From: a virus | IMG/VR virus record: IMGVR_UViG_3300045993_000425 | Location: 1 to 64,000 of that record | Direction: 5' to 3' (one strand) | Length of the DNA: 64,000 nucleotides | Part shown: positions 25,398 through 55,841 of the stretch, in pieces | Numbering within the stretch: position 1 is the stretch's first letter | Layout of the letters: every line of letters begins with the position of its first letter | Position numbers and translations under genes: made by a program | Notes under the pieces: model-generated | Databases searched by the model: none | The model's input: only the letters and a program-made list of their open reading frames with translations | Told to the model about the DNA's origin: nothing

Positions 25398-28300
25398 TTA
25401 CACTGGATAAGAAAAGTTCAGATAATAGGTTGCGTTCCCTAGTGCCCCCTTAAGAATGGTGAAATTGCTACCGCTCAGAAGACAGGGCGCCATACCGGAC
25501 GTGTTATCAGACGCAACAACGACACCAACGAATGTGGCTCTTGGCACAGGAAGACATGTCGTGATAACATCGTTATCGGCAAACAGAACTGTTCCTTTGA
25601 TCGCTCCAGTGACATAAGCGATCCCACCTTTGACCATATATTCACACGTTCCAAACACAGTGGCGTGGGCGCCCATGCTAGTCAGACCTGTCCAGCCTAT
25701 GTCACCTGGCTGACTGAACACTGCCCCGGTAGCAATTGTCAGCGTATTACCGCTCGGAACCGTTACGTTGTTGGTGGTGACGGCTGACGTGATCGTACTG
25801 GTTCCGCTGTTCCACGGGACGTTTTCGCTCGCCTGCCCTGTTACGTTGCCAATGAATCCATCGACTGAGGTTGTAGATCCGTTGACCGTTAGATTCCTAA
25901 CCTGTCCAACAACATAGGCACCGATCGTCAAGTTGCCGGTCAGCGTTCCGCCAGCCAGCCTCAGGTCGTCTGACGCATGACCGGTTAGTGTGCCATCGAT
26001 TGTCAGCGTCTTACCGGTCGGAACCGTTACGTTATCGGTCGTCAGTGCGCCGATCAATCCGCCGACAACCGTCAGCCCGTTGTGAGCCGTCAGCAAACCG
26101 GTATTGTCAATCGTAACGTGGTCGGATGAGGACGACGACACCGAACCGGCATGAAATGCCAGATACCCTCTTGCCCCATCGGCCGCTGCCCTGCCACCAG
26201 TGATTCGACCAAACTCATGCTGCGCCTGTGTGGGTCCAGCGGAGTTAGGCCTGAACGTCAATGACACACGATTTGGAGTCGCAACTGCCATGTTGTCGAA
26301 CCCGGTCATTAGCGTCAGAGCTGTCCGATCATCCATGCCTCCAGCCCCGTTGCTGATCGAAACACTTCCGATCGCGTCGGCAGTAAGAGTACTAAGCCCG
26401 TCTCCAACTCCAAGGATAGTGAGCTTGTCTGTTTGGCCGCTCAGACGAGGACCGCTGCTACCGAGCAGGATGCCGCCCTTTGTAGTATCGGCCGCTCCTT
26501 GTACACCAAAATGGTTTGCGACCCCGATGTCATACAGAACTGCGTCATTTCCAATGCTCAGAACCGGTCCACTCGCTCCAGTAGGGGTGGCCCTTAGCAG
26601 CCCAGATACATCAAGCCCACCCAGCACCTGCACGCCGCCAGCGTTCAGGATTCGGACTCGTTCTGTCGGGCCTCCGTATGTGCTCCCTGCTGTCCCAGAT
26701 AACCCAGTAGCAAAGACGATATCTCCTGACGCAGTATCCTGGGCGATGTGCCCCGTGTAATCGGCTGAGACGCGAGTGTAATTCACACCAGCCGTGCCAC
26801 CGTTGAAGTATGTATTGAAGCCGAGGCCAGCCCAGTTAGCGCGAATGATAACTGGATGGACTCCCCCGAACTGAGCTACTGCGTCACCAAGTGCCGTTGC
26901 GAACTGCGTCGGCGGACCAGTGGCAGACCCAAACCTAACGAGTTCAGTGCCATCTGATTTCGCGAATCCAAACACTCCAGTTGTGGGACCTGACTGCTTC
27001 GCTCGGAAGTTCATACCCCAGCTACTGTCCGAGTAGACACTACCCGAGGCGATGGTTCCTCCCCCTCCAACGATGAATTGCCGTGCGGTGGCATCCTGGG
27101 TCACACTCAGAGAACCAGCTACGGTGGTCGTCGCACCTGACTTGCTGATTGACACTCCAGTGTCGTTTGCCCCGTCTCCAATTGTGAGAGCCCCTGTGTA
27201 CCCTGCCCCGTTCGTCATTCCGGTAGCTAGCACCTGACGAGCGAGGTTGGTCATCGGAACTAGTGCATCGACATTGCTGATATTCGCATCAGATGTCCCT
27301 AGCTTAACTGTACCGTATGAGCTAGTAGTAGCGTTCGCCACGCTGGTCGAGTTGCTTCCACTTACCGGAGCGGTCTGTCCATCGACATAGACATCGCTTC
27401 CGACTCGCCAGGCAAAAACACGAATCGCTCCAGGCACGCCGGTCCTCGGGAGAGCCGAGATCTGGCACTTGACCGGAGTCAAGCTACCCTGCGTCACTCT
27501 GCGGTCTAGCTCTACATACAAGCACTCACCGTCTGCGAGGTCGGTCGTTCCAGGCAGAGCTGTCAGGTGGTTAGTCACATAATTACTGACAACTCCGGTT
27601 CCATCTGACGGGAAGATGTAGCGGACGCCTCCCCAGTATAGATTTCCCGTAGCCGAATCCCAGAACCAGTTGGTAGTTCCGGTGTACTTAGCCGAAGGGT
27701 CGAGGGAGAGCTTGATGTCCTGCTGCCCTCCTGGGGAGTACCAATAGGCCCCGCTGCTGCTCTCCCAGAGACGAGTCATGACCAGACCCATCCAATCACG
27801 CAGGCTTGTGATGCCCTTGTCGCCACCTACGAACGGGTCCACTAGGTTGGTCGTAGATGTCACTGCTGGCTCTACTCGGGTCGCCAACTGGGTGAAGGGC
27901 TGTAGAGCCGAGGGACTAGATCCACCAAGGGCGAGCCGGAAGGCCATCGGACGACAGTCGGTCACCGAGGTCACGTTCATCGCTGCGGAGACGAACACCG
28001 AGGCGATAGGCAGAACGGTTGGCTGGCTGCTGAAGCTGGTACTCGAGACGACGATCTTCAGCCCTAGCGTCCTCCCTAGAGGCATCCGCTGCTGGAACTC
28101 TCGTCCTGTTGTGTCTGATAAAAGGACTACCGTATCGGCCGTGGTGGGGTCCGCTGACCTCACCAAGTCAATGCCGATGTAGTTGGTTCCAGGGATGAAA
28201 CTGCCACTTACGTTGGCGTTTGAGGGGTTTAGCTGCTGGGCACTGGCATAACCAGGCATCTGAAAGAGGCTACCGGGCTCTGTAGCCGTTGCATGAATAA

Positions 28301-28511
28301 CGCTTCCACCAGCCACCAAGAGCTTGAGGTTGATTGCTAGTTGCCCGATTCCACCTGGGGCGATGGTGAATCCGCTGACGACGACGGGCTGACCACCAGC
28401 TAGCACCTGACCAGCCAGAAGCTGAAGTTCTGCTGTAACTGCGCTCTCAACCATTCGGAGGTGCGAGACATCAACGCGCATCCCTCCGACCCAGTTCATG
28501 TTTCGTTGCAT
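25398..28511 (-). CDS. Tail fibre protein
   Basis: A 1037-residue protein. The N-terminal region (about 1-330) is a mixed baseplate-attachment type. The rest is long, Gly/Thr/Ser/Val-rich beta sequence with recurring 'LTIDGTLTG', 'LRLAGGTLTGNLTIG' and 'NNVTVPTGKTLTI' units typical of trimeric fibre shafts. The last 100 residues likely form the receptor-binding tip ('GWTGLTSMGAHATVF' begins it). Its position, after the gpI-like and tail-tube-like genes and before the endolysin, fits a fibre. It likely determines host recognition. No chaperone is recognised downstream. Confidence 0.82.
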   Translation of the reverse strand: MQRNMNWVGGMRVDVSHLRMVESAVTAELQLLAGQVLAGGQPVVVSGFTIAPGGIGQLAINLKLLVAGGSVIHATATEPGSLFQMPGYASAQQLNPSNANVSGSFIPGTNYIGIDLVRSADPTTADTVVLLSDTTGREFQQRMPLGRTLGLKIVVSSTSFSSQPTVLPIASVFVSAAMNVTSVTDCRPMAFRLALGGSSPSALQPFTQLATRVEPAVTSTTNLVDPFVGGDKGITSLRDWMGLVMTRLWESSSGAYWYSPGGQQDIKLSLDPSAKYTGTTNWFWDSATGNLYWGGVRYIFPSDGTGVVSNYVTNHLTALPGTTDLADGECLYVELDRRVTQGSLTPVKCQISALPRTGVPGAIRVFAWRVGSDVYVDGQTAPVSGSNSTSVANATTSSYGTVKLGTSDANISNVDALVPMTNLARQVLATGMTNGAGYTGALTIGDGANDTGVSISKSGATTTVAGSLSVTQDATARQFIVGGGGTIASGSVYSDSSWGMNFRAKQSGPTTGVFGFAKSDGTELVRFGSATGPPTQFATALGDAVAQFGGVHPVIIRANWAGLGFNTYFNGGTAGVNYTRVSADYTGHIAQDTASGDIVFATGLSGTAGSTYGGPTERVRILNAGGVQVLGGLDVSGLLRATPTGASGPVLSIGNDAVLYDIGVANHFGVQGAADTTKGGILLGSSGPRLSGQTDKLTILGVGDGLSTLTADAIGSVSISNGAGGMDDRTALTLMTGFDNMAVATPNRVSLTFRPNSAGPTQAQHEFGRITGGRAAADGARGYLAFHAGSVSSSSSDHVTIDNTGLLTAHNGLTVVGGLIGALTTDNVTVPTGKTLTIDGTLTGHASDDLRLAGGTLTGNLTIGAYVVGQVRNLTVNGSTTSVDGFIGNVTGQASENVPWNSGTSTITSAVTTNNVTVPSGNTLTIATGAVFSQPGDIGWTGLTSMGAHATVFGTCEYMVKGGIAYVTGAIKGTVLFADNDVITTCLPVPRATFVGVVVASDNTSGMAPCLLSGSNFTILKGALGNATYYLNFSYPV

Positions 28512-28556: not shown

Positions 28557-28982
28557 CTATTCTGTCACACCGTCATTCGAGTAGTTAATCGCCTCAAATG
28601 TGAGAGCACCGGTCACCACTCCCTTGGGCGAGATCATCCAAGTCTGGTCCGTAATGGTGCAACCAGTGAACTTGAAGACAATACTATCCGTAATGCGATC
28701 CACTACTTCGATGGTTAGGTACTTCTGCTTCAGCATATCCTTGGCTGCTGCGACCATTCCGAGCCCCTCAGGACCACCTTGAGCTCTACCTCGCACGATC
28801 TGTAGGCTCCCAGAAGCCGAGAAGCCGGTAGGCATCAACTCAAACGTCATCAGGGTGTCGATGCCTTGAGCTTTGCGTACTGGAGTCTGGATTCGTGGCT
28901 GAAAGCCGGTCGCCCATCCCATCAGGCTGCCATTTACATAGATCTTGAGGTGTGCTGCTACTACCGTTTCAGACCGAGGCAT
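28557..28982 (-). CDS. Tail-tube-fold baseplate protein (candidate)
   Basis: A 141-residue beta-rich protein beginning 'AHLKIYVNGSLMGWATGF', a pattern seen in tail-tube-like and XkdM-type proteins, and continuing 'GFSASGSLQIVRG' and 'GCTITDQTWMISPKGVVTG'. The ATG overlaps the preceding stop (TAATG). The real tail tube is the different protein at 53528, so this is more likely a tube-like baseplate or fibre-linking component. The fold is inferred from pattern only. Confidence 0.6.
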   Translation of the reverse strand: MPRSETVVAAHLKIYVNGSLMGWATGFQPRIQTPVRKAQGIDTLMTFELMPTGFSASGSLQIVRGRAQGGPEGLGMVAAAKDMLKQKYLTIEVVDRITDSIVFKFTGCTITDQTWMISPKGVVTGALTFEAINYSNDGVTE

Positions 28983-30874: not shown

Positions 30875-33800
30875 TTATTGCCCCACGAACACGACCTTGA
30901 CATCCTGGTCGATGTCAAGAATCCTTGGCGATTCGTACTGTTTCACCGGCAGAGTGTCGTTGCTGGAGTTGTACGTTGGCGATAGCATGGAAACGCTAAC
31001 AACTCCGGTCACCCTAGAAGCAGCGTCGATGATGCTGGAGATTGGGATCGACATCCCCTTGGAGCCGTTGATGACCTTGGCGACGGCAGACTGAATCAGT
31101 TGCTTGACGTTGGCTCCAGGCTTGACCCTGACGGACAGTTCGACCCGCACTCGCCGGATCAGGGCTGCATCGATGTCTAGCTTCTGACCAGCCGCGACCA
31201 GACCAGGGTAGGAGGAAGTGTCGTTAACGTCGCCATAGACGACACGGTTCACTTCAGCTAGAAGCCCGGTATTGTAGCTGTACGAGTCCTGACCCACCAG
31301 CAGATCTGTCGGGAAAGCCAGCTTGTCCAAGGGACTCAAGATACAGCCAGCTGCCTGTGTGATTGCATAGGCAGGGAAGTGTACCGGGTTGTCATATTGG
31401 AAGGAGTAATAGCTGAATGTCGGAGGAGTCATCGGAACTAGATACACCGACACCAATGTCGGATCGGTCGGGTCAGGAGCGATCAAGGCTACCTTCATGA
31501 TGACCCTGCCTGGAGACGAAGGAAGCACCTGCACCAGACCGTAACTAGTTCCAAGAGCAATAGATGAGAAGTCACCGATGCCCGAGACTGTCACCTTTGT
31601 TCGGTCGTTGAAGTCGATAGTAGACACAGTGAAGTCGTTCTGGTTGCTTGCTCCCAACTTAGGTGTCGAAACCCTTAGGGTGTCTCCCGGCATCACGCTG
31701 TTGTAGGTGCGGAAAATCATATTCGCCTGGACGTTTTCGTCGACAGACTCGGCGTTCTCAATCCAGATGCAGTGCTGGCTGCTGGACACCACTCGGAATG
31801 TGCCTTGATTTCCAAGGTTTGGGCCAGACTTGGACCGGTCGAATGTCCTCTTCTGGAACGTGATGTCTACTGGAGACACGTCGCTCGGATTCGGAGAAGC
31901 TCCCAGTGCCTGGATGGTTCCATCTTGGTTCGCTAGCACGATGGAGTATGGATTGGTGGCACCTGTCAACATGCTCCATGTTTCTGTCGCTGGGTCGAAT
32001 AGCTCCCCGGCTCCTTTGCTGCCTCCCATGTAAGCCACTTTTCCGTTGGCTAGAAGGAGTGCCGTTCCGTAGGCTTGAGCAAAGTTCAGCTTGCCTGTAG
32101 TCAGCCTAGAGATCTTTGTGGTTGGGTCATAGATCTCTGTTTCGGTCATTGGTACACCAGCAGCGTTGCATCCACCGACCACCAAGATCTTGCCAGACGG
32201 TAGCTGGATGCAGCTATGACCCATCCTTGGCTTCTGGAGGCTTCCAGCCGCTGTCCACTTGCGTCCTAGCGAGATCGAGGAGGTAAGTACATCTCCAACG
32301 ACACCCGTCGCACCAAAAGAATACCCACCGATTACATACAGTTGGTCTAGACCTACTTGGATTGTCTGATGATCTCTGGTGCCCGGTGTCAACTGCTGTG
32401 TAGCCTGACAGTAAGACCAGCTCGAACCCTGGTAGATCTCCCAGTATGTGTAGTCAGCCATAAACAGCGCGATTACGTTGCTGTCATGACCCCCGAGTGC
32501 CATGATGTCGCCATTCCACAGCGTTGTCAGGGTGTGCCTAGCCCTCGGCCCTTGCATATCGGGAGCAGAGGCCCATTTTGTACCGATGGCATTCGGGTTG
32601 TAGATATAGGTATGGGCGGTTGCGGTGCTACCATTGATACCTCCGCTAACCATCACCCTACCATCCAGCATCAAGGTGGCTGCTGCCCAAGCCACAGTGA
32701 TCGGGTAAGCCTCTGTCGCAGTCAGTTGCTTCGTTGCTGGGTCATATATGTCGACATTGCTGTACTGAACCGGGACGGCACCTTCTGGGGCAGCCGAGGT
32801 GAACCGTCGAGCCCCTCCGACGATCATCACCTTACCATCCGCCATCCGAACCACTGCGGCACCGAACCTGGCGATAGAGCCAGACACGGCAGTAGCTTGG
32901 GTCGTCCACTGCCCATCGCTAGGTAGAACAGTAAGCCAGTCGCCAGTCGGAATAGTTGTCACGTCAGAAGGAGAAGAGAAGCCCAGAGTGGTTCTCTCTA
33001 CATCGGTCAGGCAGGTGAAATTGCCAACCTTCTCAAAGTACAGCTGCATCCCAAAGTCTGGGACATGACTGTTCCTACCACCACTCGCGCTCCATAGTGA
33101 CTGACTAGAGGTGACTTGACCGGCACTAGCGGCAAGAGTCGTGCCACTCGTCCAGCCTGTGCTCTTCGGGAGAGAAATGGTGCTATTGATCGCTACCGGC
33201 ATTCCCTGCGACAGGCCTTCGTCTAGGTCCTGACCAGCAGGGCAGCTAATCAGTGCCTTGTAGTCGATGGGGCCCCACACAATCTGGGCAGAGCCTTTTA
33301 CAGGTAGGTTGAGTTCGTTCGCTGTTCCTCCAGTGACCTGGATAGCACCAGAGGAACCGGCCGCCTCAGACCCGATCTGGAGCTTTCCGGCCTGATTCGC
33401 TGCGGCTACATTGCCCCCAGCCAGAGATAGGCCAGTGACGCTAGGAACAGACAAGAAATCAACAATGTTCTTGGTTGTGGTCGGAACCAAGCGGTACTGT
33501 TCGTTGGCCCAATCCTGAACACTTGAAGATACTGGATATTTCGTCGTTAGCGTGTAGTTGCTTCCATCGTAGGTGCTACTCGAGATATGAAGCACTCCCT
33601 CGAGCAGCTGGCAGGTCTGAGCAAGAGAAACCTCGTCTGACTGCTCCACCTGGAAAGCTTGGTCAGTCCCGACTAGCGTTCCTGAGATTGGTGAACCGGT
33701 AAGCGCATTCACCTGCGACACGAGGGTTGACCTATTGATGGGGTTGGCCTGGACGACAGATAGAGATGAAGCAATGGGAGCGGCCCAAGAACTGCCTCCT

Positions 33801-36800
33801 GTGCTGGTGTCTACTAGGTTGTCTCCGGTGTGCCTCGCCAGTGTCATACTCAAGTTGCTCGCTGCTGTGACCCTTCTCGCCCCAGAAACACCCGGCACCA
33901 GCTGGTCGCAGATGGCAAGCCACCGACCAGAAGGGCCCACCGTGCTGCTGTGGGTCAGGTCGAACGAACCAGACGATAGGGTGAGAAATGCGCTAGCATC
34001 GGTTACCGCTGCGATAGCTGTTGTTGAGCTATCGACCCAGGTGACCACATTGCCTGCGACAGAATCAATCACTTGGGCGCCGGCAGTGAAGCCGTATCCT
34101 GATGGAGGAGATAGGTAAATCGTCTGTCCGACGATGAGCCCGTGTCCTGTGATACCCGATGGGTAGCTGTTGAAGGTACAGGTTACGATACCTGTCGTGA
34201 CAGCTCGACTCAAGGTCATGCTGTTCAGGCCGACCATCAGGAGGATCGAGGTCGGTGTCTGATGTACCCGAACCATTGAGCCGATGTTGAGGCTGTAGGT
34301 AACCCCAGTGGTAGGTGTCAGGATTGTTACATCGTAGGGTGCCACGATAGACACGGCTGTCGCCTGTCCCGCTGTCGCCTGTGAGGAATACCTGACTACT
34401 CCAGCCTCGCCATTCCAGAACTTATTGGTGCGCCAGACGACTCCATCTAGCTGACAGCGAGGTCTTGAGAGCAGCATGAAGTTGCTGAAGTCGAAGGTGC
34501 TTCCGAAAGCCATCCCGAGAGACTGCGGATTCCCGATACTGTCCAGGTTGTCCGCATCTAGCATCTTCAGGGTCGAACCGTAGGTGACAGCCGGATCTGG
34601 AACCAATCGCCGGAACATGTTGATCTGGAAGCTTCCCTGCTGGGCGTTCTTGTCCAGTGTGAGGGACAGCCTGCTCTCGGGACCTAGCCGGAATCCGCCA
34701 GCGGGAAAGAGTCTTGAGGTGCTGGTGCTGGTGCTTCCAGGAAGTAGACCCTCGCGAAGGTGCTGAAAGGAGGTAGTTGTCGTTCCAGACAAGGAGCTGA
34801 TGCCGCTCAACTGTGTCTTGTCCTTTACGTTGCTCCCGAGTCTGTCGAAGTACTCCCTGGCCCACACGAGGCCCGCGTGGTCCCCCTGCCGAAGGTAGGG
34901 CCAACCCATGAGCCCAGCGAGGGTTACTCCACCGTCTAGGATGACATCGGTCATCACATTAGGTGTCCCAATGTCGCTGTTGCCTGATGTGACAGAAGGC
35001 GTATGGATGTGGTCGTTGCTAGCCACTCCGATGCTCAAGCCGAAGGTTTGGCTGCCGACGATAGCCAGAAGGGAAATCGCCCCCTCTGAGGAGTGACTAT
35101 TGGTGCCTACACGATACCTGGACTCGCGATAGGTCGTCGCCCAGCCACCAGAGAGCTGCCCAGAGATGGAATCACAGATGTCCTGGGGTGAGTAGGTGCC
35201 TGCCGGAATGACTACCGTCTGAGGCTGAGAGGTCAGGCGATAGATACTGATGTACCGATAGGCTGTTCCGACGTTGGCCGGGGTGATTGTAGATCCATTG
35301 ATCGGGGTCAGGTCGAACTCAAGCCACTGCCCGAGTGGGTCCACAGCGGAGACTCGCCAGCAACCAGTGCGATGGGAGGTCGTCAGGTCGGTGCTGAAGA
35401 GGTCGGATGTCACGAACATCCAATCACCTACCTGCACCGATCCGAACGGGTACGCTGCTGTCGCACCTAGTGTCATTGTCGCAGTAATGCGCCTGGCATT
35501 GCTTGTTCCTGCGTTCAGAGTCAGGGTGTGAGTCCCATCAAGGGAGGTGGAGATACTCTTCGTTGTCCCGTCCAGAGCGAAATAGAACGTGGTCGAGGAA
35601 CCAGCAACGATGGTGGTGATGTCAGAGCTCTCCAGGTAAGCTCGGGTGTAGGATGAGCCACAGGTTAGCCGGTCCCCTACTGCCAGAGCTGTGGATAGCT
35701 CGATGATCCCCTGCTGCCGATCTAGAACGTAATCAGATCCCATACCCAGAGACACCAGCGAACTCTGACTGAACATCCCCTTGGTCACCAGGCTGCTCGA
35801 GGAGTCGATGCTAATGGCTGCTCGGTCGCTCCTGCCGAGGTTAGAAGAGATAGTCAGGCTCGCCCCCTCGACGCGAGCTGTGCAACCAGCCACCTTGTTG
35901 TTCAGAACCGCTGCCCATACAGAAAGAGGGGCAAAGGTGTTCACGGTTGGGTATGTCGAGGAAACAGCAGCGAAGTCCTTATCCAGAAACTGATACGTCT
36001 TCTGATCGGTTCCATCTACGGAGATCGTCAGTGTGTCGCCAGTGTGGATACCGGCCCACTCAGACTGATGGAGGCTAGTCAACTTGGCAGCGGCTCCATC
36101 CTTGAAGAGTAGCTTGTCGTTTAGGTACAGACGCAGGGTATCGTAGCGCCCCCCAGGAAGCCCCAGGACGCTCGCTGCATCGACCCCTAAGGGTTGGGTC
36201 AACTCTAGGTCGTCATTCGCCTCCTGACGGGCCTGGAGCCCTAATCCGGTGCCTCCACCGATAGTGCGAGCCGAGAAGCCCACAGTCGGATTGGCGTTGA
36301 TGCTGGCCACGACCTCGTAGGCAGTAGCGGCTGTGATGTCCTGGAAGTCCTGAGCTACAAATGTATGTTCGTATCTGACACCACCCACCAGAATCGCCAG
36401 CTGGTTCCCCTCGGCTAGCCGATAGGGAGGCTGGTTGCTGGACTTCAAGGTCGCCTTAGCTGTCGGACGACCGTAGGCCAAATGGAATGTGGTTTCACCC
36501 CCATCGGCTTGGTCGACTAGCACCTCTTGGTCGACCCCAGCATCCTTTGGCTCGTATGCGGACCCGTCGTCAATATACAGTGTCGTTGTACTGCCTGGTC
36601 TTTCGACCAACCGGGCCGAGGCGACGACTGAATCCTCGGAGGATGACTTGACACCGTACAGGTTCGCTAGAAGAGCACCAGGAGTGGCCTTCGACCTGTT
36701 CCCACGAATCGCCTTGATGCGGTCGCGATAGTGGTCGTCGCTCTCGATTGCCGTCCCGTTGTTGACAGGGAGAGGGTTGGTACAGGTCATCCCGATGAAT

Positions 36801-37570
36801 GGCGGGCTGACGACATACCGGATGGCCCCTGCGTTCACATTTCCCACGGCTCCCGACACCTGTGCGGTCACGGGAACATTCGACACCTCAACATCACCAT
36901 CGAGGATGACAGCGGGCTGGCTAACGCGGTACAGGGCGGAATCGGTTTTGTTGCCTTGGGGGGTCCCGATGACTTGTCCGGCCAGAATCTGTCTGTCTCC
37001 ACCCTGCGCCAGCACAACAGCATCTCCAACCTGATGCTGCTTGGTCGTCCCTGCGGGGATGGTCAAGGCCCAGCTGCCATCACTTTTTTGCGTTCGGCTC
37101 GTGTAGGCCAGAGGCCCCTCGAGGCGAGTGCTGCCACGTCCCAGATAGACACTACCGGAGTTCGGGAATGCCGATGCGTCCGAAAGATAAATCGTCGTCG
37201 AGCCAGATACAGATGTCCCATTTCCAGAATAGATACGGTTCGATACCTTGGTGTATCGTGAGTCAGAGATGGTGATTCGTCCTGTGGCGTATGTCTCCCC
37301 CAGACGGTTGATCCCCTCCTGGCGGCCGATGCGGTCGAGAAATGCCCCCTTCGCCTTGTCGATATTGGAAGCATCGACCAAGTTCATGATATCCATGCTG
37401 TTCTTGGCTTGGCTCTGGGCTACAGCCTCGAGTAGAGCCAGGACGCTGGAGCCAGGCTTGAGGCTTGTCACCCCTGGAGCCAGCCCGCTGGTGTCCAACC
37501 GGGCAAGGTAGTCGTCCACCATGCCGCCAAGAATGTTAGGAAGTGCGCGTGGTTGCGGGATAGAGGCCAT
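30875..37570 (-). CDS. Giant baseplate J-like protein with internal Kelch beta-propeller
   Basis: A 2231-residue protein. The N-terminal 300 residues carry baseplate J features: 'NILGGMVDDYL', 'FLDRIGRQEGI', 'VSGAVGNVNAGAI', and 'AIESDDHYRDRIKAIRG' near 280. The C-terminal 100 residues ('IRRVRVELSVRVKPG' onward) are the usual end domain. Between them are very long beta-rich insertions and, at about residues 1545-1900, a Kelch-type propeller with 'VMIVGGARR', 'VMVSGGING', 'IMALGGHDS', 'LYVIGGYSF', 'ILVVGGCNA' and 'VAYMGGSKG', six or seven blades. Typical J proteins have 300-500 residues. The ATG at 37570 is chosen; an in-frame TTG seven codons earlier lacks a ribosome site. It forms the baseplate ring, with the propeller probably exposed. 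Confidence 0.85.
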   Translation of the reverse strand: MASIPQPRALPNILGGMVDDYLARLDTSGLAPGVTSLKPGSSVLALLEAVAQSQAKNSMDIMNLVDASNIDKAKGAFLDRIGRQEGINRLGETYATGRITISDSRYTKVSNRIYSGNGTSVSGSTTIYLSDASAFPNSGSVYLGRGSTRLEGPLAYTSRTQKSDGSWALTIPAGTTKQHQVGDAVVLAQGGDRQILAGQVIGTPQGNKTDSALYRVSQPAVILDGDVEVSNVPVTAQVSGAVGNVNAGAIRYVVSPPFIGMTCTNPLPVNNGTAIESDDHYRDRIKAIRGNRSKATPGALLANLYGVKSSSEDSVVASARLVERPGSTTTLYIDDGSAYEPKDAGVDQEVLVDQADGGETTFHLAYGRPTAKATLKSSNQPPYRLAEGNQLAILVGGVRYEHTFVAQDFQDITAATAYEVVASINANPTVGFSARTIGGGTGLGLQARQEANDDLELTQPLGVDAASVLGLPGGRYDTLRLYLNDKLLFKDGAAAKLTSLHQSEWAGIHTGDTLTISVDGTDQKTYQFLDKDFAAVSSTYPTVNTFAPLSVWAAVLNNKVAGCTARVEGASLTISSNLGRSDRAAISIDSSSSLVTKGMFSQSSLVSLGMGSDYVLDRQQGIIELSTALAVGDRLTCGSSYTRAYLESSDITTIVAGSSTTFYFALDGTTKSISTSLDGTHTLTLNAGTSNARRITATMTLGATAAYPFGSVQVGDWMFVTSDLFSTDLTTSHRTGCWRVSAVDPLGQWLEFDLTPINGSTITPANVGTAYRYISIYRLTSQPQTVVIPAGTYSPQDICDSISGQLSGGWATTYRESRYRVGTNSHSSEGAISLLAIVGSQTFGLSIGVASNDHIHTPSVTSGNSDIGTPNVMTDVILDGGVTLAGLMGWPYLRQGDHAGLVWAREYFDRLGSNVKDKTQLSGISSLSGTTTTSFQHLREGLLPGSTSTSTSRLFPAGGFRLGPESRLSLTLDKNAQQGSFQINMFRRLVPDPAVTYGSTLKMLDADNLDSIGNPQSLGMAFGSTFDFSNFMLLSRPRCQLDGVVWRTNKFWNGEAGVVRYSSQATAGQATAVSIVAPYDVTILTPTTGVTYSLNIGSMVRVHQTPTSILLMVGLNSMTLSRAVTTGIVTCTFNSYPSGITGHGLIVGQTIYLSPPSGYGFTAGAQVIDSVAGNVVTWVDSSTTAIAAVTDASAFLTLSSGSFDLTHSSTVGPSGRWLAICDQLVPGVSGARRVTAASNLSMTLARHTGDNLVDTSTGGSSWAAPIASSLSVVQANPINRSTLVSQVNALTGSPISGTLVGTDQAFQVEQSDEVSLAQTCQLLEGVLHISSSTYDGSNYTLTTKYPVSSSVQDWANEQYRLVPTTTKNIVDFLSVPSVTGLSLAGGNVAAANQAGKLQIGSEAAGSSGAIQVTGGTANELNLPVKGSAQIVWGPIDYKALISCPAGQDLDEGLSQGMPVAINSTISLPKSTGWTSGTTLAASAGQVTSSQSLWSASGGRNSHVPDFGMQLYFEKVGNFTCLTDVERTTLGFSSPSDVTTIPTGDWLTVLPSDGQWTTQATAVSGSIARFGAAVVRMADGKVMIVGGARRFTSAAPEGAVPVQYSNVDIYDPATKQLTATEAYPITVAWAAATLMLDGRVMVSGGINGSTATAHTYIYNPNAIGTKWASAPDMQGPRARHTLTTLWNGDIMALGGHDSNVIALFMADYTYWEIYQGSSWSYCQATQQLTPGTRDHQTIQVGLDQLYVIGGYSFGATGVVGDVLTSSISLGRKWTAAGSLQKPRMGHSCIQLPSGKILVVGGCNAAGVPMTETEIYDPTTKISRLTTGKLNFAQAYGTALLLANGKVAYMGGSKGAGELFDPATETWSMLTGATNPYSIVLANQDGTIQALGASPNPSDVSPVDITFQKRTFDRSKSGPNLGNQGTFRVVSSSQHCIWIENAESVDENVQANMIFRTYNSVMPGDTLRVSTPKLGASNQNDFTVSTIDFNDRTKVTVSGIGDFSSIALGTSYGLVQVLPSSPGRVIMKVALIAPDPTDPTLVSVYLVPMTPPTFSYYSFQYDNPVHFPAYAITQAAGCILSPLDKLAFPTDLLVGQDSYSYNTGLLAEVNRVVYGDVNDTSSYPGLVAAGQKLDIDAALIRRVRVELSVRVKPGANVKQLIQSAVAKVINGSKGMSIPISSIIDAASRVTGVVSVSMLSPTYNSSNDTLPVKQYESPRILDIDQDVKVVFVGQ

Positions 37571-37599
37571 CTGCCGTCCATTATGTGGCAAGAGAAGGG

Positions 37600-37996: not shown

Positions 37997-40603
37997 CTAC
38001 CGAGACATGTCGAAAGACACCGGAATCAGGACATCTGAGCCTCTGACACCCAGCTCCAGGCCGACCCTAGCAACAGGACCATCTATTTTGACCGAGGCAG
38101 ACCTGATGCCGGTCAAGTTCTTATTCTGGAATGTGCCCCTGAGCCCAGCCATCAGGTCTTTGGCCGACACATCTGCCAAGCTAGAACCAACCGGAAGGTC
38201 GACACCGAAGCCAGGATGCAGCATCATGGCCCCTCTGGGAGTCGAGAGGGCAATCCTAGTCCACTGGATCAGCGACTCTAGGCCGTAGCAGAACGGCCAG
38301 TTACCATCCGGCTGAATTGCGATGTCGCCACGCTCTGTGAGTGCTCCATCGATGTCCCCAGCCTCGAGGATTTTGGCTAGGTCGGACTCATTCGGGCTAT
38401 AGGGCTGGTTGATCTGGCTAGTGTCGTCGCTAGGGATATAGAGAACCTGCCCAGAGTGGACGGTGTGAGGTGCCCACCACCTTGCTTTGGCGTTCTCTGT
38501 GACCTTCCAGAGGTCCAAGTCAGCGTCCCCATCCAGCGTGACCATCCACATCGAGGGTCCATCCTGGCGAACATTTCTGACAGTCCGCACCTCGACACGC
38601 CTGATGTCCGAGAAGATATGGATCGACTGCCCCAGGACGAGGCTGGAAGCGTCAGCTAGAGCGATCTGATTCCCTCTGCCGTTGATCAGGAGCGAGGCTG
38701 TGGTGCCTGTCTCGTCGATGTAGGGCTGGCGAAGGTCGTTCAGAGCGGCGATCTCAAACCACCTCTGGCTATCTCCCAGGTACTGCTGCGCCATTCGCTC
38801 GAGGGAGCCCCCGTAGGTGTAAGGAACCGCGAACTTGGACTTGGGAACCCTCATGGCGATCTGCGCTTGGTTGGCTACGCCTGCAACGTAGTCAATGGTC
38901 AACTTGGGTGGATTCCTGACTGTCTGGGCTAGGGTAGCCATCTGACCCATGACCTGAGCAGCCTCCATGAGAGCCGCAAGAACCTCTAGGTCTTCGTCCA
39001 TCGGCTCCCTTTGCTGGACGACGGTCGTGGTGGTGGTTGTGTTCGTACCGCTGACGATGGTGTCTCCATGCTGACCCTTGTCCTGGCTAGCTGGTTCGGC
39101 ACCAGGCGACCTCATGCAGGTATTGAAGGTGTCGCTACCGAGCCCCACCTTGGCTGCGTACTTCGCCAGTGTGTCTAAGATCTGCTGCTGGAACTTCCTG
39201 AAGTCCGCAGCTGTCAGCTTACGAACCTCCTTGAGCTCCTCCTCGATCATCTTCTTGACTTTGCTGTTCTGGGGAGCGGTCCTGGCATCGATCATGCTAT
39301 TGATGGCATCCCTGGTAGCTGGGTTCATATTCGCCATGATCTCAGCCGCTGTCGCGCTACCGTTGCCCGCATCATTCCTGGCCTGATCGAGGTCTTCGTT
39401 GATGCTCTGGTCGGTTCCGGTGGTTCCACGCAGGACATCTGGAGGTCCCAGCCCTGGCGGATTGGGCCCAAGCTGACCGAAGTTCTGGTTGCTGGGGGCT
39501 GTTGAGTCCTTCCTGAGGATGGCGGCGAGGCTGTTGGCTGAGTCACCGAAGGAATTGATTCCTTTGTACCATTCCTGCTGAATGACGTTCTTGAAGTCAC
39601 TCAGGGTGGTGACGAAGCCGCCGACATCTTTGATCAGCAAGCCAACCTCTCGGATCGGACCCATTACAGTGCTGTCAAAATCCTGCTCGATGCCTGTGAT
39701 GATGCTGCTCAGGCCCTGAAGGGTGTTATGCAGAGCATTCAGCCGTCCCATGATCTGGCTGAAGATGGATGCATCTCGAGGTTTGGCAGAGCGCCAAGCT
39801 AGTTCTTGTGGCTCCACAGCTCCGATCTTTGAGGGATCGATCCTCTTCCATGCTTGGAATTGTAGCGAGTATCGGTACTCGAAAGGGCTCCCAGCGGACC
39901 TGCTCACTCGAAAAGCCTGAGGGGTCACAAGATAGGCTGCTTGTTCCTTCCAGATCAGCAGAGCGAGGCGTAGATCTCGCCCAGAGGTGGTCTTCTTGAC
40001 TTCAGCGTAGGACTCTAGGTATCGCTGAAGGATGCGGAATTGGGCATAGCCTGATTCTCGCGGGTCGATCTCATTGTCTACGTTGACCTTGAACTCTGGT
40101 CCTAAGACAACCTGACGAGCCGATGCAATGGTTCTGGTGACGGCAGAGATTGTTCCACCAAATAGCCCGCCTAGTTCATGCAGAAGCCCGCCTTGAAGTG
40201 ACTCGCCGCTCTTGCGGAGTGGATGCACACCGAATGTTCCCGAGAATGATATTTGCCTGAATGGGGCTCCTCCGTTTTGTTCAACCACTCCGTCTAGAGT
40301 AGCCGCAACAGAGGAGGCGAACGGCATCGCATTGCTTAGTTCCTCGGGGTTGATCGGGAGCGAAAAGATCGAATCGCTGAATACCGAGTATGAGCCGGGT
40401 CCAGCTTGAAGAACCACTAGTTCATAAGGATAGGACGAGGACCAGTTTCTGAACCCGATGTCTGATGAGACATCATAGCGGGCAGTAGCGGGCACCTTGC
40501 TAGCTAGGTCCGCTAGATTTTGCTCAACGTACCGACTGCTCAACAGTTCGGTCTTACCGTCAGCTGGACCACCCAGAATGTTCGCAATGCCGAGGACGTT
40601 CAT
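37997..40603 (-). CDS. Baseplate protein, LysM domain fused to gp25-like wedge domain
   Basis: An 868-residue protein. The N-terminal 300 residues are beta-rich, similar to tail proteins that link hub and wedge. Helical, Asn/Asp-rich linkers follow. A LysM-like module starts near 591 ('GGSLERMAQQYLGDSQRWFE'). The last 110 residues match gp25/GpW-type wedge proteins, with 'LIQWTRIALSTPRGAMMLHP' and 'GFGVDLPVG'. In many phages LysM (gpX/gp53) and gp25 are separate genes next to baseplate J; here they are one chain. GAGGAA precedes the ATG. Confidence 0.8.
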   Translation of the reverse strand: MNVLGIANILGGPADGKTELLSSRYVEQNLADLASKVPATARYDVSSDIGFRNWSSSYPYELVVLQAGPGSYSVFSDSIFSLPINPEELSNAMPFASSVAATLDGVVEQNGGAPFRQISFSGTFGVHPLRKSGESLQGGLLHELGGLFGGTISAVTRTIASARQVVLGPEFKVNVDNEIDPRESGYAQFRILQRYLESYAEVKKTTSGRDLRLALLIWKEQAAYLVTPQAFRVSRSAGSPFEYRYSLQFQAWKRIDPSKIGAVEPQELAWRSAKPRDASIFSQIMGRLNALHNTLQGLSSIITGIEQDFDSTVMGPIREVGLLIKDVGGFVTTLSDFKNVIQQEWYKGINSFGDSANSLAAILRKDSTAPSNQNFGQLGPNPPGLGPPDVLRGTTGTDQSINEDLDQARNDAGNGSATAAEIMANMNPATRDAINSMIDARTAPQNSKVKKMIEEELKEVRKLTAADFRKFQQQILDTLAKYAAKVGLGSDTFNTCMRSPGAEPASQDKGQHGDTIVSGTNTTTTTTVVQQREPMDEDLEVLAALMEAAQVMGQMATLAQTVRNPPKLTIDYVAGVANQAQIAMRVPKSKFAVPYTYGGSLERMAQQYLGDSQRWFEIAALNDLRQPYIDETGTTASLLINGRGNQIALADASSLVLGQSIHIFSDIRRVEVRTVRNVRQDGPSMWMVTLDGDADLDLWKVTENAKARWWAPHTVHSGQVLYIPSDDTSQINQPYSPNESDLAKILEAGDIDGALTERGDIAIQPDGNWPFCYGLESLIQWTRIALSTPRGAMMLHPGFGVDLPVGSSLADVSAKDLMAGLRGTFQNKNLTGIRSASVKIDGPVARVGLELGVRGSDVLIPVSFDMSR

Positions 40604-41692: not shown

Positions 41693-43519
41693 TTAGTCTC
41701 CGGTCACGTCAGGGATGACTACTTTGGTCGGGTCCAGAGCGGCGAATATGTCGGCTCGGTTGGTCGATGATTGAGGTGGAACCGACACACCATGACTTAA
41801 CTGCAAGGTCGTGCGGAATGATCTTCGACCATCGGGGTTGCATACAGCTTGGTGTGTCACTTGCTCGATGTGAAATACGATGTCGTCAAACTCTAGGTTG
41901 TCGCCAGGTGCGACAGGAGCCTGCAACCCAATACATTCTATCGTTCCGTTAAGCCATAGTTGCTGACCCATAACTAGGTCGCACATCAGGTCGCGCCAGA
42001 CGGTAGGCCCTTTCTGCGCCTCTGCCAGAAGACAATTGATGCTTCTGATGTACGGTCGGATACCATGCCTCTTGACATCAAGGGTGTCGATAATAGGAGG
42101 AGCCCTGACGAAGCTGTTGTAGTCATCCCTAGCCCACAGTCCCTGTGCCGAGATGTAGACCATATTGAATCTGGCTGCATCGCTGCGCCCTATATCGAGT
42201 CCATAGACCATGTCGACAGACAGTTTCCATCTCGGAAGTTCAAGGAAACGGGTCGCGTCAGCATTGGTTGCCGACCTGCCAAAATTGATCTGGTTCTGTG
42301 TAGGGCCGTACATGCTGCTGTTTCCGGTGCCTCCGAATTGCTCCATCGTTTTTGCATCCTGCTGCGCCGCTTTCTGACCTTCGTCTTGGTTGATGTCCAG
42401 CAAGCTCTGAACCATGTCTGAGCTGTATGGTGTCTGTCGCACGACAAAGCTGGGCAGCAACCGACCTGTCTTAGGCTCAGACCGGATGGCTACATACATC
42501 TCATTGATCGGAGGGTTGCAGTACGTTGACAGAGTGTTCCAGACAGTCTGATTGGGCGCCGGAGCGGCCAGCTTAAATTGCCCAATCATATCGGTCAACT
42601 CTGGCTCAAACAGCACCTCGGGGGTGCCCTTAGTCGATTGTTCGTCGCCTCCTGCTTGATTCTGATAGTGCTGGAGCCCGACCTTAACCGACAGCATATC
42701 GGCCCATGTGGGACTCACATTAGTCGGCGTCACACCTAGCCACTTAGCAACATCCTCATGAATCAGGTATCTGGTGTTTGCCGTAGCGGTTACGGTTACG
42801 GACGGCAGCTTGGTCGGCTGTGCCTTCGCCCAAGCCCCATCTCCGAAGATGCATCCAATCAAGGCAGGCAGCACCTTGTTGATGTCGATCCCCGACCCAT
42901 TGGTACTACTCGACCCATTGGTGATTTTCTCGATCTCCAGCCCGAAGTCCTTCAGGTTGGCTAGTTCTACCATCCCTTTCTGCAACTGCGGGTGGTAGTA
43001 CAACAGCGAATCAAACTCTCCAAAGCCGACCGCCTGCATCGAAAACGATGTCGATCTGGTCCCATCTGCCTGCACATGAATGCTCTTACGGAACGAAGAT
43101 ACCTTGCCGATGAACTTTAGGCCTCGGTTGAACTGATTGATCGGTCGCCAGTTCAGCATATCGTCCTCAAGTTGCTTGCCTTCCTGCTCATTGTTGACAA
43201 TACAAGCGACAACCCAATCACCAGGCATGATGAGAGGCAGGTAGTCGATATATGGCACGAGAACAGCCTGAAGATTGGTGACGTGACTATCCTTGGCTGC
43301 CGCTACGGTCAACTGTACGATCTGCTGGCTCAGGATTAGCATGTTTCTGGACTTCATCGCATCCGCATCGTTTGTTGATACTGAGTTGATTTCATCCTTG
43401 GTCTTCGGATCGAATGTCACCTGATTGTCAAAGCGGGCAATTCCGACCACCCAGTAAGGTGACTGATCGATTAGGTCATCGGAAGGGAAGTCGGTTCTGA
43501 GGTTGTAGGTCGGGGCCAT
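41693..43519 (-). CDS. Baseplate hub protein (gp27/gpD-like)
   Basis: A 608-residue protein between tape measure and spike, where the hub gene sits in contractile tails. It is a beta-rich protein with 'VQLTVAAAKDSHVTN', 'IMPGDWVVACIV' and 'GDNLEFDDIVFHIEQVTHQA' near the C-terminus, resembling the tube-like domains of hub proteins. It would connect the tail tube to the spike. The assignment rests on position, size and pattern. Confidence 0.7.
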   Translation of the reverse strand: MAPTYNLRTDFPSDDLIDQSPYWVVGIARFDNQVTFDPKTKDEINSVSTNDADAMKSRNMLILSQQIVQLTVAAAKDSHVTNLQAVLVPYIDYLPLIMPGDWVVACIVNNEQEGKQLEDDMLNWRPINQFNRGLKFIGKVSSFRKSIHVQADGTRSTSFSMQAVGFGEFDSLLYYHPQLQKGMVELANLKDFGLEIEKITNGSSSTNGSGIDINKVLPALIGCIFGDGAWAKAQPTKLPSVTVTATANTRYLIHEDVAKWLGVTPTNVSPTWADMLSVKVGLQHYQNQAGGDEQSTKGTPEVLFEPELTDMIGQFKLAAPAPNQTVWNTLSTYCNPPINEMYVAIRSEPKTGRLLPSFVVRQTPYSSDMVQSLLDINQDEGQKAAQQDAKTMEQFGGTGNSSMYGPTQNQINFGRSATNADATRFLELPRWKLSVDMVYGLDIGRSDAARFNMVYISAQGLWARDDYNSFVRAPPIIDTLDVKRHGIRPYIRSINCLLAEAQKGPTVWRDLMCDLVMGQQLWLNGTIECIGLQAPVAPGDNLEFDDIVFHIEQVTHQAVCNPDGRRSFRTTLQLSHGVSVPPQSSTNRADIFAALDPTKVVIPDVTGD

Positions 43520-43522
43520 GAT

Positions 43523-46270
43523 TTAGTGTGCCAGGTCTTCTTTAGGCAGACCGGCCTGTTCGTTGGTTGGTGACTTGTGCGCGTCTCTGTCGAGTGGCAT
43601 TGATGGACCCTTTTCATCAGGTGTAAGGTCCGGCTTCTTGAGCCCCATCATGATGAGGAACATTTCATTGACCTTGGATCCACTTGTGGTCAGCTGTTCC
43701 ATCAACTCCCTGAACTTCTCCCCTTGCTTAAACATAGCCTTGGAGAACACATCTTTCTGGTCGCCACCTCCCCCACCTGTGGCCTTCCGACTCGCCTCTC
43801 CAGAGCCGTCTCCCATTGACCTGACTTGTCCGGTTGCTGCTTCTGCGCTTCCGAATGTTTCTGGATCGATCTGGTATTCTAGGTTTGCCAGCACCCTGAA
43901 GTTGTCTTCGCTTGCCCCAAGTCCGTCCTTCCTGGACTTGTCGTTTCTCCACTTCAAGACATCGCCCTTATACTCATCACCCAGAATCAGGTTGGCGAGC
44001 TTTGTCGCCTGCGTACCGGCTCCGGATGTTCCCCCGATGTAAGTGCCTAGAGCCCTGGTCGCACTGAACCTGACTTTATCTTCGATGTTCTTTCGTGTGA
44101 TACCCATAGAACTGAACTCAATTGGGATATCTTTGGTTAGGTAGTTGCCATTCTTGTCTTTCCTCAATAGACTCATGGCTGTGGCATAATCGAGGTTCGC
44201 CAACATGTTCTGACCTAGCAAGTTGTTGCCAGGCATGACCTTCACCGCATCTGCTAGGTTGACAGAGCGCCGCCAGTCGGTAGCTCCTTTCAATAGGTTG
44301 TCCCCTACCTGCAATCCCATTTGGTTCTGCTGCAACATCCGAAGCTGCTCTGGGCTCTTCATCTTGTTGGGGTCAATGCCGCTCGAGAGCATGCCGACTA
44401 GGCCATCCATAGACCCAATGGTGCGGTTAGGACCCATCAATGCAGCCACGGCACTGCCGAGAGTCTCCTGTACCACCGTTTGGTCAAGACCCGTGTGGCG
44501 CAGTGTTTTCAGTAAGTCCCCGCCACCAAGTGCTCCAATGGCTGCGATAGTCGCCGCTGCCCCACCAGACATGCCTCCAGACACTGATGTTATTGCAGAA
44601 CCATACAACCCTTTGGTCTTTAGTACCCCTCTCCCGCCAGCACCGACTAATGCCTCTAGCAAACCTTGTTGCTGCTCTGGTGTCATCCCAGACTTGTAGG
44701 CATTTCGCGTTGCTAGCTCGATGGACGATGCTGACAACCCGATGCGATTCGATGTAGCGACCAATCCTTGTGCTCGACTTAGAGCTGTGCTAATGGCTGC
44801 GTTCTCTCTCGTCTGCGAGGCTTTCTTTCTGGCGACTGAATCCGCCTCTTGTTCGTTCAGCATAGCGTTGACGTTTGCGTCTGCGTTGGCTAGCTCAGCT
44901 TGCCGAATATTTGGATGTAGGATGTTTCGTGCTGTATTATCCAGATATCCCCAGATTGTCTTCTGTCTCTCTCCTAGATCGTAGGCAGCGGCTCGAGACT
45001 TCCCGAAGCTTGCGGCTGAACCGTCGTCATCGCTAACGGTGCCGATTCTTCTGCTATCAATGATCTGCTGACGGGCATATTCCGTAATCAAGTCACCGTG
45101 CTGGATACTTGCCTGCATCTGCCCTACGCTCTGTCCTGACCTCGCTGCGATGCCCATCTGCATATCAGCAGCTTGCTGTCGTAGTTCAAGCGTATCTCTC
45201 TGGTATCCATGCACAAACTGCCCAGCCTTAACGCCGGCGTAGATTCCAGCGAGTCCTAGCCCGAGAGCCCCTGCTCCACCAGCAATAAACGCTAGCCTGC
45301 CTCCAGCTAGTGTGTTAGCCAATCCTCCAGCACCGGGAATTGAGCCAAGAGCCCCCGCCAGCATTCCAAAGCGATCACTTCCCTCCTCGCCATATCCTGC
45401 CTGCTGATCTAGAAGGGACTTGTGATTGGCCGAAACACTAGCAAGTCGTCTACCGGCTGTCGCCATGCGCTCGTTCGCTGCGATTCGCTCTTTAGAAGAG
45501 GCCGCGCTCTCTGCCTTATCCTTCCACTTGGCGTAGCTATCCGACAGCCCGTTGATGATTCGCTTGGACTTCTCCAGCTTCTTGTCTAGGTCTTCTACCG
45601 ACCTCCCGAGCACCTCCTTCAGGACCCGTCCCGTCTTGCCGGCCTCCCCACCGAGTTCCTTGATGAGAGCCTTGTCCTTCAGGATGGCATTGGACAAACC
45701 GCCACGCTGCTCTGGTGACATCAGCTGCTTTTCATGCAGACGCTTGGGCTTCTCATCTGGAGCAACCAACGTCCTCTCGCTACCCAGCTCCCCCTGCTTG
45801 ACATACAGCTTCGATACAATGCGATTCACTTGTTCGTTTTTCTTTACAAGCTTGGGCACTTGACTAGGGTTGACCTCCCTCGCAAGGTCTAGAGCTGCTT
45901 GGGTGCCCTCCTTCAACGCCAAAGCCTTCTGGAGCCTAGAGGTTGTCTTAGAGATTCGACTGTCCACTTGCGCCAGTGACTGACTCAGCACCTGCTTGAG
46001 AACACGGTCGAGGGTCTTCGCTTGGTCCCCTAGTTCCGCGAACCCCCTCTTACGCTCTAGGAGGAACTTCGCGAAAGCTCCCTGCGCCAGATTCTGCTGC
46101 TGGGCAGACATAGGTCTGCTACCGGCACCACCAGCCCCACCCTGCCCAATTGCGCTGAAGACCTTGCTAGCCTGACCACCCTGGCTGATGATCTGCTGGA
46201 GTACCTGAAGGATCTGCCTACCACCGCTGGCATCACCTTTGATCGCAATACGCAAGTTGGTATCGGCCAC
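43523..46270 (-). CDS. Tail tape measure protein
   Basis: A 915-residue protein starting at GTG with AAGG upstream. Long helical regions rich in Gln, Lys, Ala and Ser occupy about residues 20-300. A hydrophobic Gly/Ala/Leu segment follows at 310-355 ('GGAGALGLGLAGIYAGVKAG'), typical of the membrane-active part of tape measures. A mixed helical remainder completes it. It sets tail length and is injected ahead of DNA. It lies directly after two small chaperone-like genes, as usual. Confidence 0.85.
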   Translation of the reverse strand: MADTNLRIAIKGDASGGRQILQVLQQIISQGGQASKVFSAIGQGGAGGAGSRPMSAQQQNLAQGAFAKFLLERKRGFAELGDQAKTLDRVLKQVLSQSLAQVDSRISKTTSRLQKALALKEGTQAALDLAREVNPSQVPKLVKKNEQVNRIVSKLYVKQGELGSERTLVAPDEKPKRLHEKQLMSPEQRGGLSNAILKDKALIKELGGEAGKTGRVLKEVLGRSVEDLDKKLEKSKRIINGLSDSYAKWKDKAESAASSKERIAANERMATAGRRLASVSANHKSLLDQQAGYGEEGSDRFGMLAGALGSIPGAGGLANTLAGGRLAFIAGGAGALGLGLAGIYAGVKAGQFVHGYQRDTLELRQQAADMQMGIAARSGQSVGQMQASIQHGDLITEYARQQIIDSRRIGTVSDDDGSAASFGKSRAAAYDLGERQKTIWGYLDNTARNILHPNIRQAELANADANVNAMLNEQEADSVARKKASQTRENAAISTALSRAQGLVATSNRIGLSASSIELATRNAYKSGMTPEQQQGLLEALVGAGGRGVLKTKGLYGSAITSVSGGMSGGAAATIAAIGALGGGDLLKTLRHTGLDQTVVQETLGSAVAALMGPNRTIGSMDGLVGMLSSGIDPNKMKSPEQLRMLQQNQMGLQVGDNLLKGATDWRRSVNLADAVKVMPGNNLLGQNMLANLDYATAMSLLRKDKNGNYLTKDIPIEFSSMGITRKNIEDKVRFSATRALGTYIGGTSGAGTQATKLANLILGDEYKGDVLKWRNDKSRKDGLGASEDNFRVLANLEYQIDPETFGSAEAATGQVRSMGDGSGEASRKATGGGGGDQKDVFSKAMFKQGEKFRELMEQLTTSGSKVNEMFLIMMGLKKPDLTPDEKGPSMPLDRDAHKSPTNEQAGLPKEDLAH

Positions 46271-54047: not shown

Positions 54048-55841
54048 TTACGCGGACTGAGTCGGCTGCGTGAGCAGGAACCGAATCGGGATGAAGTAAA
54101 CGCCGGTCCCAGGCTTGATTTCAGCCGACACCAGCATCGCTGGGGGGCTGATCTGCACGCTGGCGTTCTTGTAGCCACCAGGCGCGTCGTCGCTAGAAAC
54201 CATCAGCTTGAGCCGGTAGAGCTCGCTCAGAATGCTCTTGAGGTAGCTCAGAGCGATTGCGGCAGACACATCTGCGAAGTTCTGGCCGATGAAGGCCTTC
54301 TCCATCTTGTCCGAAACCGTCATGGCGATGGTGTCAGCGGTGTAGACGGCCTGGATGCTGTTGTAGACGAAGTTGTTGTCATATCCGTAGGTTGTCTGGT
54401 CAGAGACGAATGACATGACACCATCAGACATCCGAGGAGCCAGGATGAGGAGGCCATTTCGGATGGCATCCTCGAGTGCATCCTGGTTCTCGACTACGAA
54501 GTCGCTCTTGGGGGCGCGGCTGCCGTAGACGTTGAGAGCCTTGTTGAAGATCGGGCGGTAGCCTGCGCTGGCCTGCATCGCTGCCGCGACGACTGCACAA
54601 GCCCACGGCTGGAACCAAGTCAAGGTGCCGCTAGCGTTCGGCTGTAGAGTATCGAGGTAGCTGAGAGCCATCCGAGCCGAGCCCATCTGCTGCGCCTTTG
54701 CCTTTGCGTTGGCGTAGGTGTCGCTGACACTCGGGAAGCCCTGACGCGGCTTGCGCTGCTTGAACTGCGAGCAGTAGCTCAGGTGCGTCGAGAGGGCCGC
54801 ATTGACACCAGCGATGGTGTAGGTCGAGGAGGAGTCGGTAGCTCCGATAGCAATGTCACCGGTTGTCGCAGTGGTCGCATCCTGGCTGAAGAGAGTAACG
54901 ATAAAGTTCGCCCGGAGACGAGCCGCCTGGTCAAGAGCGGCGATGACGTTGGAATCGTAGGTGTGGCCGAGGGCCCCACCATTCAGGAAGGTGATGGTTT
55001 GTGAAGCCGGAAGACCGGTGTTCGGGAAGATCGTCGAATCGACCGAAACCAGACGGCTGGTAGCAATCGCCTGCATGAAGTCGAAGGCATCCTTCTTGAC
55101 ACTGAAGCCACCACCAGAGACATCGGCTCCGCTGACCTCATCTAGAACGAACGGAGAAAGCTGCGAGTAGACAGGAGTAACAGTCGCAGACCAGCCCTTG
55201 GAGGTGATGAAGGCAGCTAGGTCGCCTAGAGTCTTGAAGTCGGAAAGACCAGCCGTCCAAGCAGAAACTCCGTTGCTGTAACCAGTGATGGATGTCGCAC
55301 CGATAGTCATAGTAGGTACGGTTGCACCGCTAGATACCAGCATAGCAACCGACCCACCAACAACGAACTGCTCAGAAATGTTGTCATTCTTGCGAGCGAT
55401 TGTGATGGTCGATGAGCCGCTTGAGGTAGCTACAGTGACAGAGATGAGGTTGCCATTCTTTCCGGCTGACTTTGCATCCAGCTTGGCGTAGCCGCCGGTA
55501 AGGGTTGTCGACGCCTTGGTGCCCTGGTTCGTCTTGATGAGGACGATCTGGGTAGGGCTGCCCTTGACCTGTGGGTCCTTGGAAGGAGCGCAGGCGAGGA
55601 GGTACGCATCGACTAGGCGACCCGACCCGAACTTGGCAACTACATCAGCCTTCTGGGAGGGACCATAGACGCTAGTCGAGGTTACATCCTCATCGAGATA
55701 GCTGGGACCATCAGAGGCCTCACCGACGAGGACAACGACACCGGTAGTCGAGGTGCCAGACGTGCTGGGAGCCACGTCCCACTTAGCTGGTGCGCTCGGA
55801 ATGTAGAGCGTGCCGTCTGTAGTAGTGTACGAAAGAGCCAT
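54048..55841 (-). CDS. Tail sheath protein
   Basis: A 597-residue protein. 'TGVVVLVGEASDGPSYLDED' near residue 30 is the typical sheath N-terminal strand region. 'VEIND'-type linkers are not obvious, but the C-terminal domain with 'IALSYLKSILSELYRLKLMV' and 'IPIRFLLTQPTQS' fits the sheath C-terminal domain. A protease-resistant outer domain occupies the middle. Sheath contraction drives the tube through the envelope. Strong TAGGAG before the ATG. Confidence 0.87.
   Translation of the reverse strand: MALSYTTTDGTLYIPSAPAKWDVAPSTSGTSTTGVVVLVGEASDGPSYLDEDVTSTSVYGPSQKADVVAKFGSGRLVDAYLLACAPSKDPQVKGSPTQIVLIKTNQGTKASTTLTGGYAKLDAKSAGKNGNLISVTVATSSGSSTITIARKNDNISEQFVVGGSVAMLVSSGATVPTMTIGATSITGYSNGVSAWTAGLSDFKTLGDLAAFITSKGWSATVTPVYSQLSPFVLDEVSGADVSGGGFSVKKDAFDFMQAIATSRLVSVDSTIFPNTGLPASQTITFLNGGALGHTYDSNVIAALDQAARLRANFIVTLFSQDATTATTGDIAIGATDSSSTYTIAGVNAALSTHLSYCSQFKQRKPRQGFPSVSDTYANAKAKAQQMGSARMALSYLDTLQPNASGTLTWFQPWACAVVAAAMQASAGYRPIFNKALNVYGSRAPKSDFVVENQDALEDAIRNGLLILAPRMSDGVMSFVSDQTTYGYDNNFVYNSIQAVYTADTIAMTVSDKMEKAFIGQNFADVSAAIALSYLKSILSELYRLKLMVSSDDAPGGYKNASVQISPPAMLVSAEIKPGTGVYFIPIRFLLTQPTQSA

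Follow-up and report, generated by a model that had tools for sequence, protein, structure and literature searches.

A predicted Kelch β-propeller within the giant baseplate J protein of a phage related to Mx1

The baseplate J protein encoded in a 64,000-nt stretch of viral DNA (the window; positions 1-64,000 of IMGVR_UViG_3300045993_000425, a virus contig of 166,843 bases) carries, in a single open frame, an insert predicted to fold as a six- or seven-bladed Kelch β-propeller. Propellers are found at three positions among the relatives, with slots A and B in J and slot C in the next baseplate protein, termed P2, and each position is marked by a small β-domain, the "GDW" carrier domain. The favored reading, given a probability of about 0.6, is that an Mx1-like phage with a contractile tail has this protein as its J (gp6-like wedge) component and that the propeller in the GDW loop is most likely an adhesin.

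The J gene and its surroundings

The J open reading frame spans 30875-37591 (-) and encodes 2238 residues from a TTG at 37591 or 2231 from an ATG at 37570, the latter fitting the starts of the homologues just before the same "IPxPxS"-like motif; residues of the window J are numbered from the TTG. A Pfam search with hmmscan identifies Baseplate_J (PF04865) with 39.0 bits compared with a curated cut-off of 21.1 (E 7.4e-10), and phrog_6, "baseplate wedge subunit," matches with E 4.5e-27. The same core family includes the wedge or ring proteins T4 gp6 and Mu gp47, which are propeller-free and a few hundred residues in length, whereas J in the family of the window has 1759-2919 residues (median 2183 for 89 complete homologues distinct at 95% identity). 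The expectation in the first-pass annotation that J proteins normally have a few hundred residues therefore does not hold among Mx1-like phages. A J of about 2000 residues is usual in these phages, so the size of the window J is not due to the propeller, and large size as a sign of insertion is ruled out. Most of the giant homologues (74 of the 89 by a profile test) have no Kelch region in J. As a separate observation, J is split into two overlapping open reading frames in three relatives (L058, L079, and L141).

Table I. Features of the window discussed in the text
Feature	Coordinates (strand)	Extent or content	Basis
Giant baseplate J gene	30875..37570 (-)	2231 aa	Pfam and PHROG profile matches
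Baseplate_J core match	36692..36994 (-)	residues 200-300, best stretch	Pfam PF04865 above cut-off
Empty slot A in J	35222..35440 (-)	residues 718-790	GDW domain; 13 distinct relatives have a propeller after it
Slot-B carrier (GDW) domain, first half	32924..32986 (-)	residues 1536-1556	alignment with empty relatives
Predicted Kelch β-propeller (slot B)	31877..32926 (-)	residues 1556-1905	Pfam, HMM, AF2 model, fold search
Slot-B carrier domain, second half	31712..31828 (-)	residues 1922-1960, NQGTFRV..	alignment with empty relatives
Conserved C-terminal J part	30878..31363 (-)	residues 2077-2238	36-41% identity to relatives, alignments
Hub/assembly gene, upstream of J	37997..40603 (-)		tube-initiator and weak sheath-initiator (gp25-like) matches
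Next baseplate gene, P2	28982..30874 (-)	630 aa, without Kelch	homologue of Mx1 "kelch repeat protein"
Empty slot C in P2	29540..29752 (-)	GDWVLIDGVGMFSGIHQV	
Small virion protein (phrog_985)	28557..28982 (-)		homologue of Mx1 WNM70276
Probable fibre gene	25398..28511 (-)		N-terminal ~470 residues homologous to Mx1 WNM70277
Tail sheath (contractile tail)	54048..55841 (-)		phrog_279, E 1.8e-33

The surroundings of J are those of a contractile baseplate, with a tube/sheath initiator beside J and a sheath gene elsewhere in the window (Table I). The hub gene matches PF23980 above the cut-off, and its sheath-initiator match is weak. J and P2 have one homologous domain in common (J ~370-460 and P2 ~102-198; about 90 columns, hhalign 94%, E 1.4e-7), and the model of P2 is weak with a mean pLDDT of 56. 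Three large open reading frames of the structural region (58611-63569 (-), 43523-46270 (-), and 41693-43519 (-), with 1652, 915, and 608 amino acids, respectively) have no Pfam or PHROG match at E 0.001.

Myxococcus phage Mx1 (OR576727.2), the only full-length relative in a set of 50,697 phage records, has homologues of the window genes for J and P2 and also of those for the hub, the small protein, and the fibre. The Mx1 J (WNM70274, 1925 amino acids) is homologous to the window J over most of its length, with 26-38% identity by segment. Differences occur in the arrangement, as hub and J are not adjacent in Mx1 whereas the hub lies directly upstream of J in the window, and in the location of the propeller. 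The Mx1 J has no Kelch region and closes from GDWVVARLSG to ARNNGTFRV at the site of the window insert, whereas the Mx1 "kelch repeat protein" (WNM70275) is a P2 homologue with a slot-C propeller, at about residues 410-750, that the window P2 lacks. No tRNA is found in the 64-kb window, and Mx1 is reported to have 22 tRNAs (PMC10720576).

Further relatives come from IMG/VR and genome contigs, where alignment-based scans give 131 loci with J in total; scans of IMG/VR with the single protein P0001 or the alignment A1 returned zero relatives, and the wider alignments A2, A3, and A5 found them. Kelch regions in the 89 complete distinct J proteins lie near residues 740-1040 in 13 and near 1570-1837 in two (L102 and L138). 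P2 is split into two or three open reading frames in L034, L044, L092, L097, L110, and L116, some with one to several kb between; introns were considered as the cause and set aside, with no Rfam intron match in L034, L044, L092, or the window. The locus L005 (G002:C1:52170-59687) has three more Kelch open reading frames (823, 1084, and 1064 amino acids) about 12-20 kb from a Kelch-free J.

The propeller and its three slots

Seven Kelch families match the window J in Pfam, six of them above the curated cut-offs and the best with E 8e-16. The motifs mark out six well-defined blades plus a seventh (NPYSIVLANQDGTIQALGA..) that is degenerate, at residues ~1580-1905, in agreement with the six or seven blades at about 1545-1900 described in the first-pass annotation, and a Kelch profile search identifies the insert as the sole Kelch region in the 166,843-base record. 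Structure prediction, suggested in that annotation for residues 1500-1950, was run with AlphaFold2 on residues 1500-1990 using an 18-row alignment and recovers a propeller fold, with the model being confident in part only. The block mean pLDDT is mostly 75-93 at residues ~1580-1700 and 1780-1880; one mid blade region and the ring closure are poorly modelled, the flanks are below 50, and the overall mean is 60.5. A Foldseek search with this model returns Kelch propellers with E down to 6.6e-16 and TMt ~0.7, and Foldseek with VIA-align gives Z ~28 to Kelch propellers, mostly at 2.3-2.9 Å over ~245 residues, the top matches being Keap1, KLHL, and designed Kelch propellers. L102 and L138, which are independent records, have the same single open reading frame with the propeller at the same place as in the window. 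The claim that a Kelch propeller lies inside a 2231-residue J is thus borne out by the sequence, the model, and the shared arrangement in these two relatives.

Slot A lies near residue 765 of J and is occupied in 13 distinct phages, slot B lies at residue 1556 and is occupied only in the window, L102, and L138, and slot C lies in P2, as in Mx1. The slot-A propeller follows a domain with the pattern GDW..GAFRI..VVERR, and in slots B and C the propeller has the GDW strand of the carrier domain on one side and its N.G.FRV strand on the other. Profiles of the three carrier domains are homologous by hhalign (E 2.5e-14 for A-B, 3.9e-7 for A-C, and 1.2e-5 for B-C), the slot-C rows being mostly flanks joined at cut points chosen by the authors, with which three natural empty sites agree (P2 of L135, HNLQSGTRVSIEGLALSKMNGNFKV, and also P2 of L131 and of the window). 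By these profile comparisons slots A, B, and C lie in homologous copies of one small GDW β-domain.

Occupancy differs among the lineages, with at least 11 slot-A phages also carrying a slot-C propeller. In the slot-B clade the window P2 is empty, the L102 P2 has no Kelch region, and the L138 contig stops short of P2. Kelch is absent from both J and P2 in L105, L114, L131, and L135. The Kelch-free P2 of L135 (L135:16213-19293) has an N-terminal stretch ahead of the conserved part that appears lectin-like by eye.

A tree of the J-core columns, with the insert left out, unites the slot-B phages (SH-aLRT 99) and, L095 apart, the slot-A phages (SH-aLRT 97) in a clade each, and slot C is dispersed across the larger clade. 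In the tree of the propellers themselves slots A and B each form a group, with support of 100/99 for A and a moderate 74/85 for B, and for the deep order of the groups the alternatives tested have an AU p of ~0.22. Slot labels require 2 changes on the propeller tree, which is the minimum, compared with a mean of 12.8 for shuffled labels, and none of 200 shuffles is as low. Since the propellers sort by slot and with the J-core clades, the trees indicate that relocation is rare and is followed by slot-wise inheritance. A recent duplication within the genome, giving the J propeller from that of P2, is rejected for the slot-A phages, in which the propellers of the two slots, A and C, belong to separate supported groups.

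Divergence, possible roles and precedents

Propeller identity is lower than the identity of the N-terminal J core in 16 of 18 comparisons from 14 phage pairs, as in L050/L097 with 78% in the core, 52% in slot A, and 57% in slot C; the two that deviate are both slot-C propellers, in the pairs L089/L132 and L089/L125. The propeller is usually also less conserved than the middle β region of J, and this region too diverges faster than the core, so that the propeller is not alone in changing fast. The BC loops, which join strands B and C and were delimited with a simple pattern, are more variable than the remainder in four pairs from slots A and B (p 0.00015, 0.0004, 0.005, and 0.03), and no such excess is present in L089/L125, a slot-C pair (p 0.56). 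Variable propeller loops may reflect weak constraint and nothing else. A Laminin_G_3 domain is nested within the slot-C propeller of L140 (Pfam, E 1.4e-9). In the slot-C propellers of L023 and L044, stretches that look lectin-like by eye have no Pfam match there.

Kelch domains are general protein-binding platforms, and a propeller located within core baseplate genes, beside a fibre gene, and inherited over long times in each slot could be a structural or assembly part that clamps adjacent wedges or holds the tail fibre with no host contact. Such a role is rather unlikely given that 74 of the 89 distinct J homologues have no propeller in J, that the four relatives noted above have a propeller in neither J nor P2, and that the propeller diverges faster than the core into which it must fit. 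Kelch propellers are also found in enzymes of the galactose-oxidase, sialidase, and sialate-epimerase types, and Glyoxal_oxid_N matches the Mx1 P2 above its cut-off (40.3 compared with 37.5 bits). A sugar-acting enzyme of one of these types is nevertheless improbable for the window, where the region matches only Kelch-motif families above cut-off, a result silent on a catalytic copper site, and where the best folds, Keap1/KLHL and designed propellers, are non-catalytic.

The occurrence of propellers at three positions across two genes would also suit a freely mobile cassette with frequent jumps between slots and phages, which is given as little credence as an enzyme in view of the slot-wise clustering and of the agreement of slots A and B with the J-core tree, L095 excepted. 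An artefact, in which a frameshift, misassembly, or chance repeat had fused two genes, is least credible of all and can be practically dismissed. The split J in L058 and L141 suggests that the data set may contain errors, and no sign of one is seen in the window, where J is in one frame throughout with internal stops absent and homology flanks the insert on both sides. A frameshift joining two genes, the outcome that the first-pass annotation had raised against its own claim, is ruled out by this open frame, the two-sided homology, and the single open reading frame in the independent records of L102 and L138.

Propellers have precedents in phage baseplates and host-recognition devices. In phiKZ gp131 a C-terminal seven-bladed propeller (PDB code 4GBF) is located at the baseplate periphery, with a receptor-binding or enzyme role proposed and unproven, and the receptor-binding protein (RBP) platform of Staphylococcus aureus phage phi11 has a propeller in its host-recognition device (PMC4901313). 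As published, gp131 is a different protein in which the propeller is a terminal domain as opposed to an insert in J, and the phi11 RBP is a trimeric siphophage receptor-binding protein with five blades, unlike the Kelch domain within the window J. The giant phage CBB has a Kelch propeller in the virion protein CBB_552, and the CBB Kelch proteins are separate proteins and not J, whereas the window Kelch is inside J (PMC5259590). A search of open-access papers found no Kelch-bearing J; the combination of J with a propeller and the three-slot pattern appear to be new, with the parts being of known kinds.

Binding of a host glycan or protein by the baseplate propeller is proposed from the fast propeller divergence, the loop variation in some pairs, the nested lectin-like domains, and these precedents, and is plausible. 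In the adhesin reading the propeller sits in a carrier-domain loop well away from the J core, a placement that would leave the J fold and the ring intact. At least three carrier domains are present in the phage family, of which J has two and P2 the third, with different lineages filling different ones. We infer that the propeller is exposed on the virion, that its copy number at the baseplate is several, and that these displayed copies bind a sugar or protein of the host surface, which would help to hold the baseplate at the cell.

A wider and more tentative proposal, for which the odds are short of even, is that in Mx1-like phages the repeated small β-domain is a standard socket and that the wedge itself provides host recognition as a system distinct from the tail fibres. 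The neighbouring J and P2 would then offer at least three such sockets, any of which could take an adhesin propeller, in some cases with lectin domains nested in it, and leave the ring undisturbed. Mx1 is cultivable, so the propeller idea is directly testable, and slots that are empty or filled in nature are ready-made controls on the role of a baseplate propeller. Searches for the basis of phage host recognition usually centre on fibres, spikes, and dedicated receptor-binding proteins; should core wedge proteins bear binding propellers at fixed sockets, fibre-centred annotation will overlook adsorption genes.
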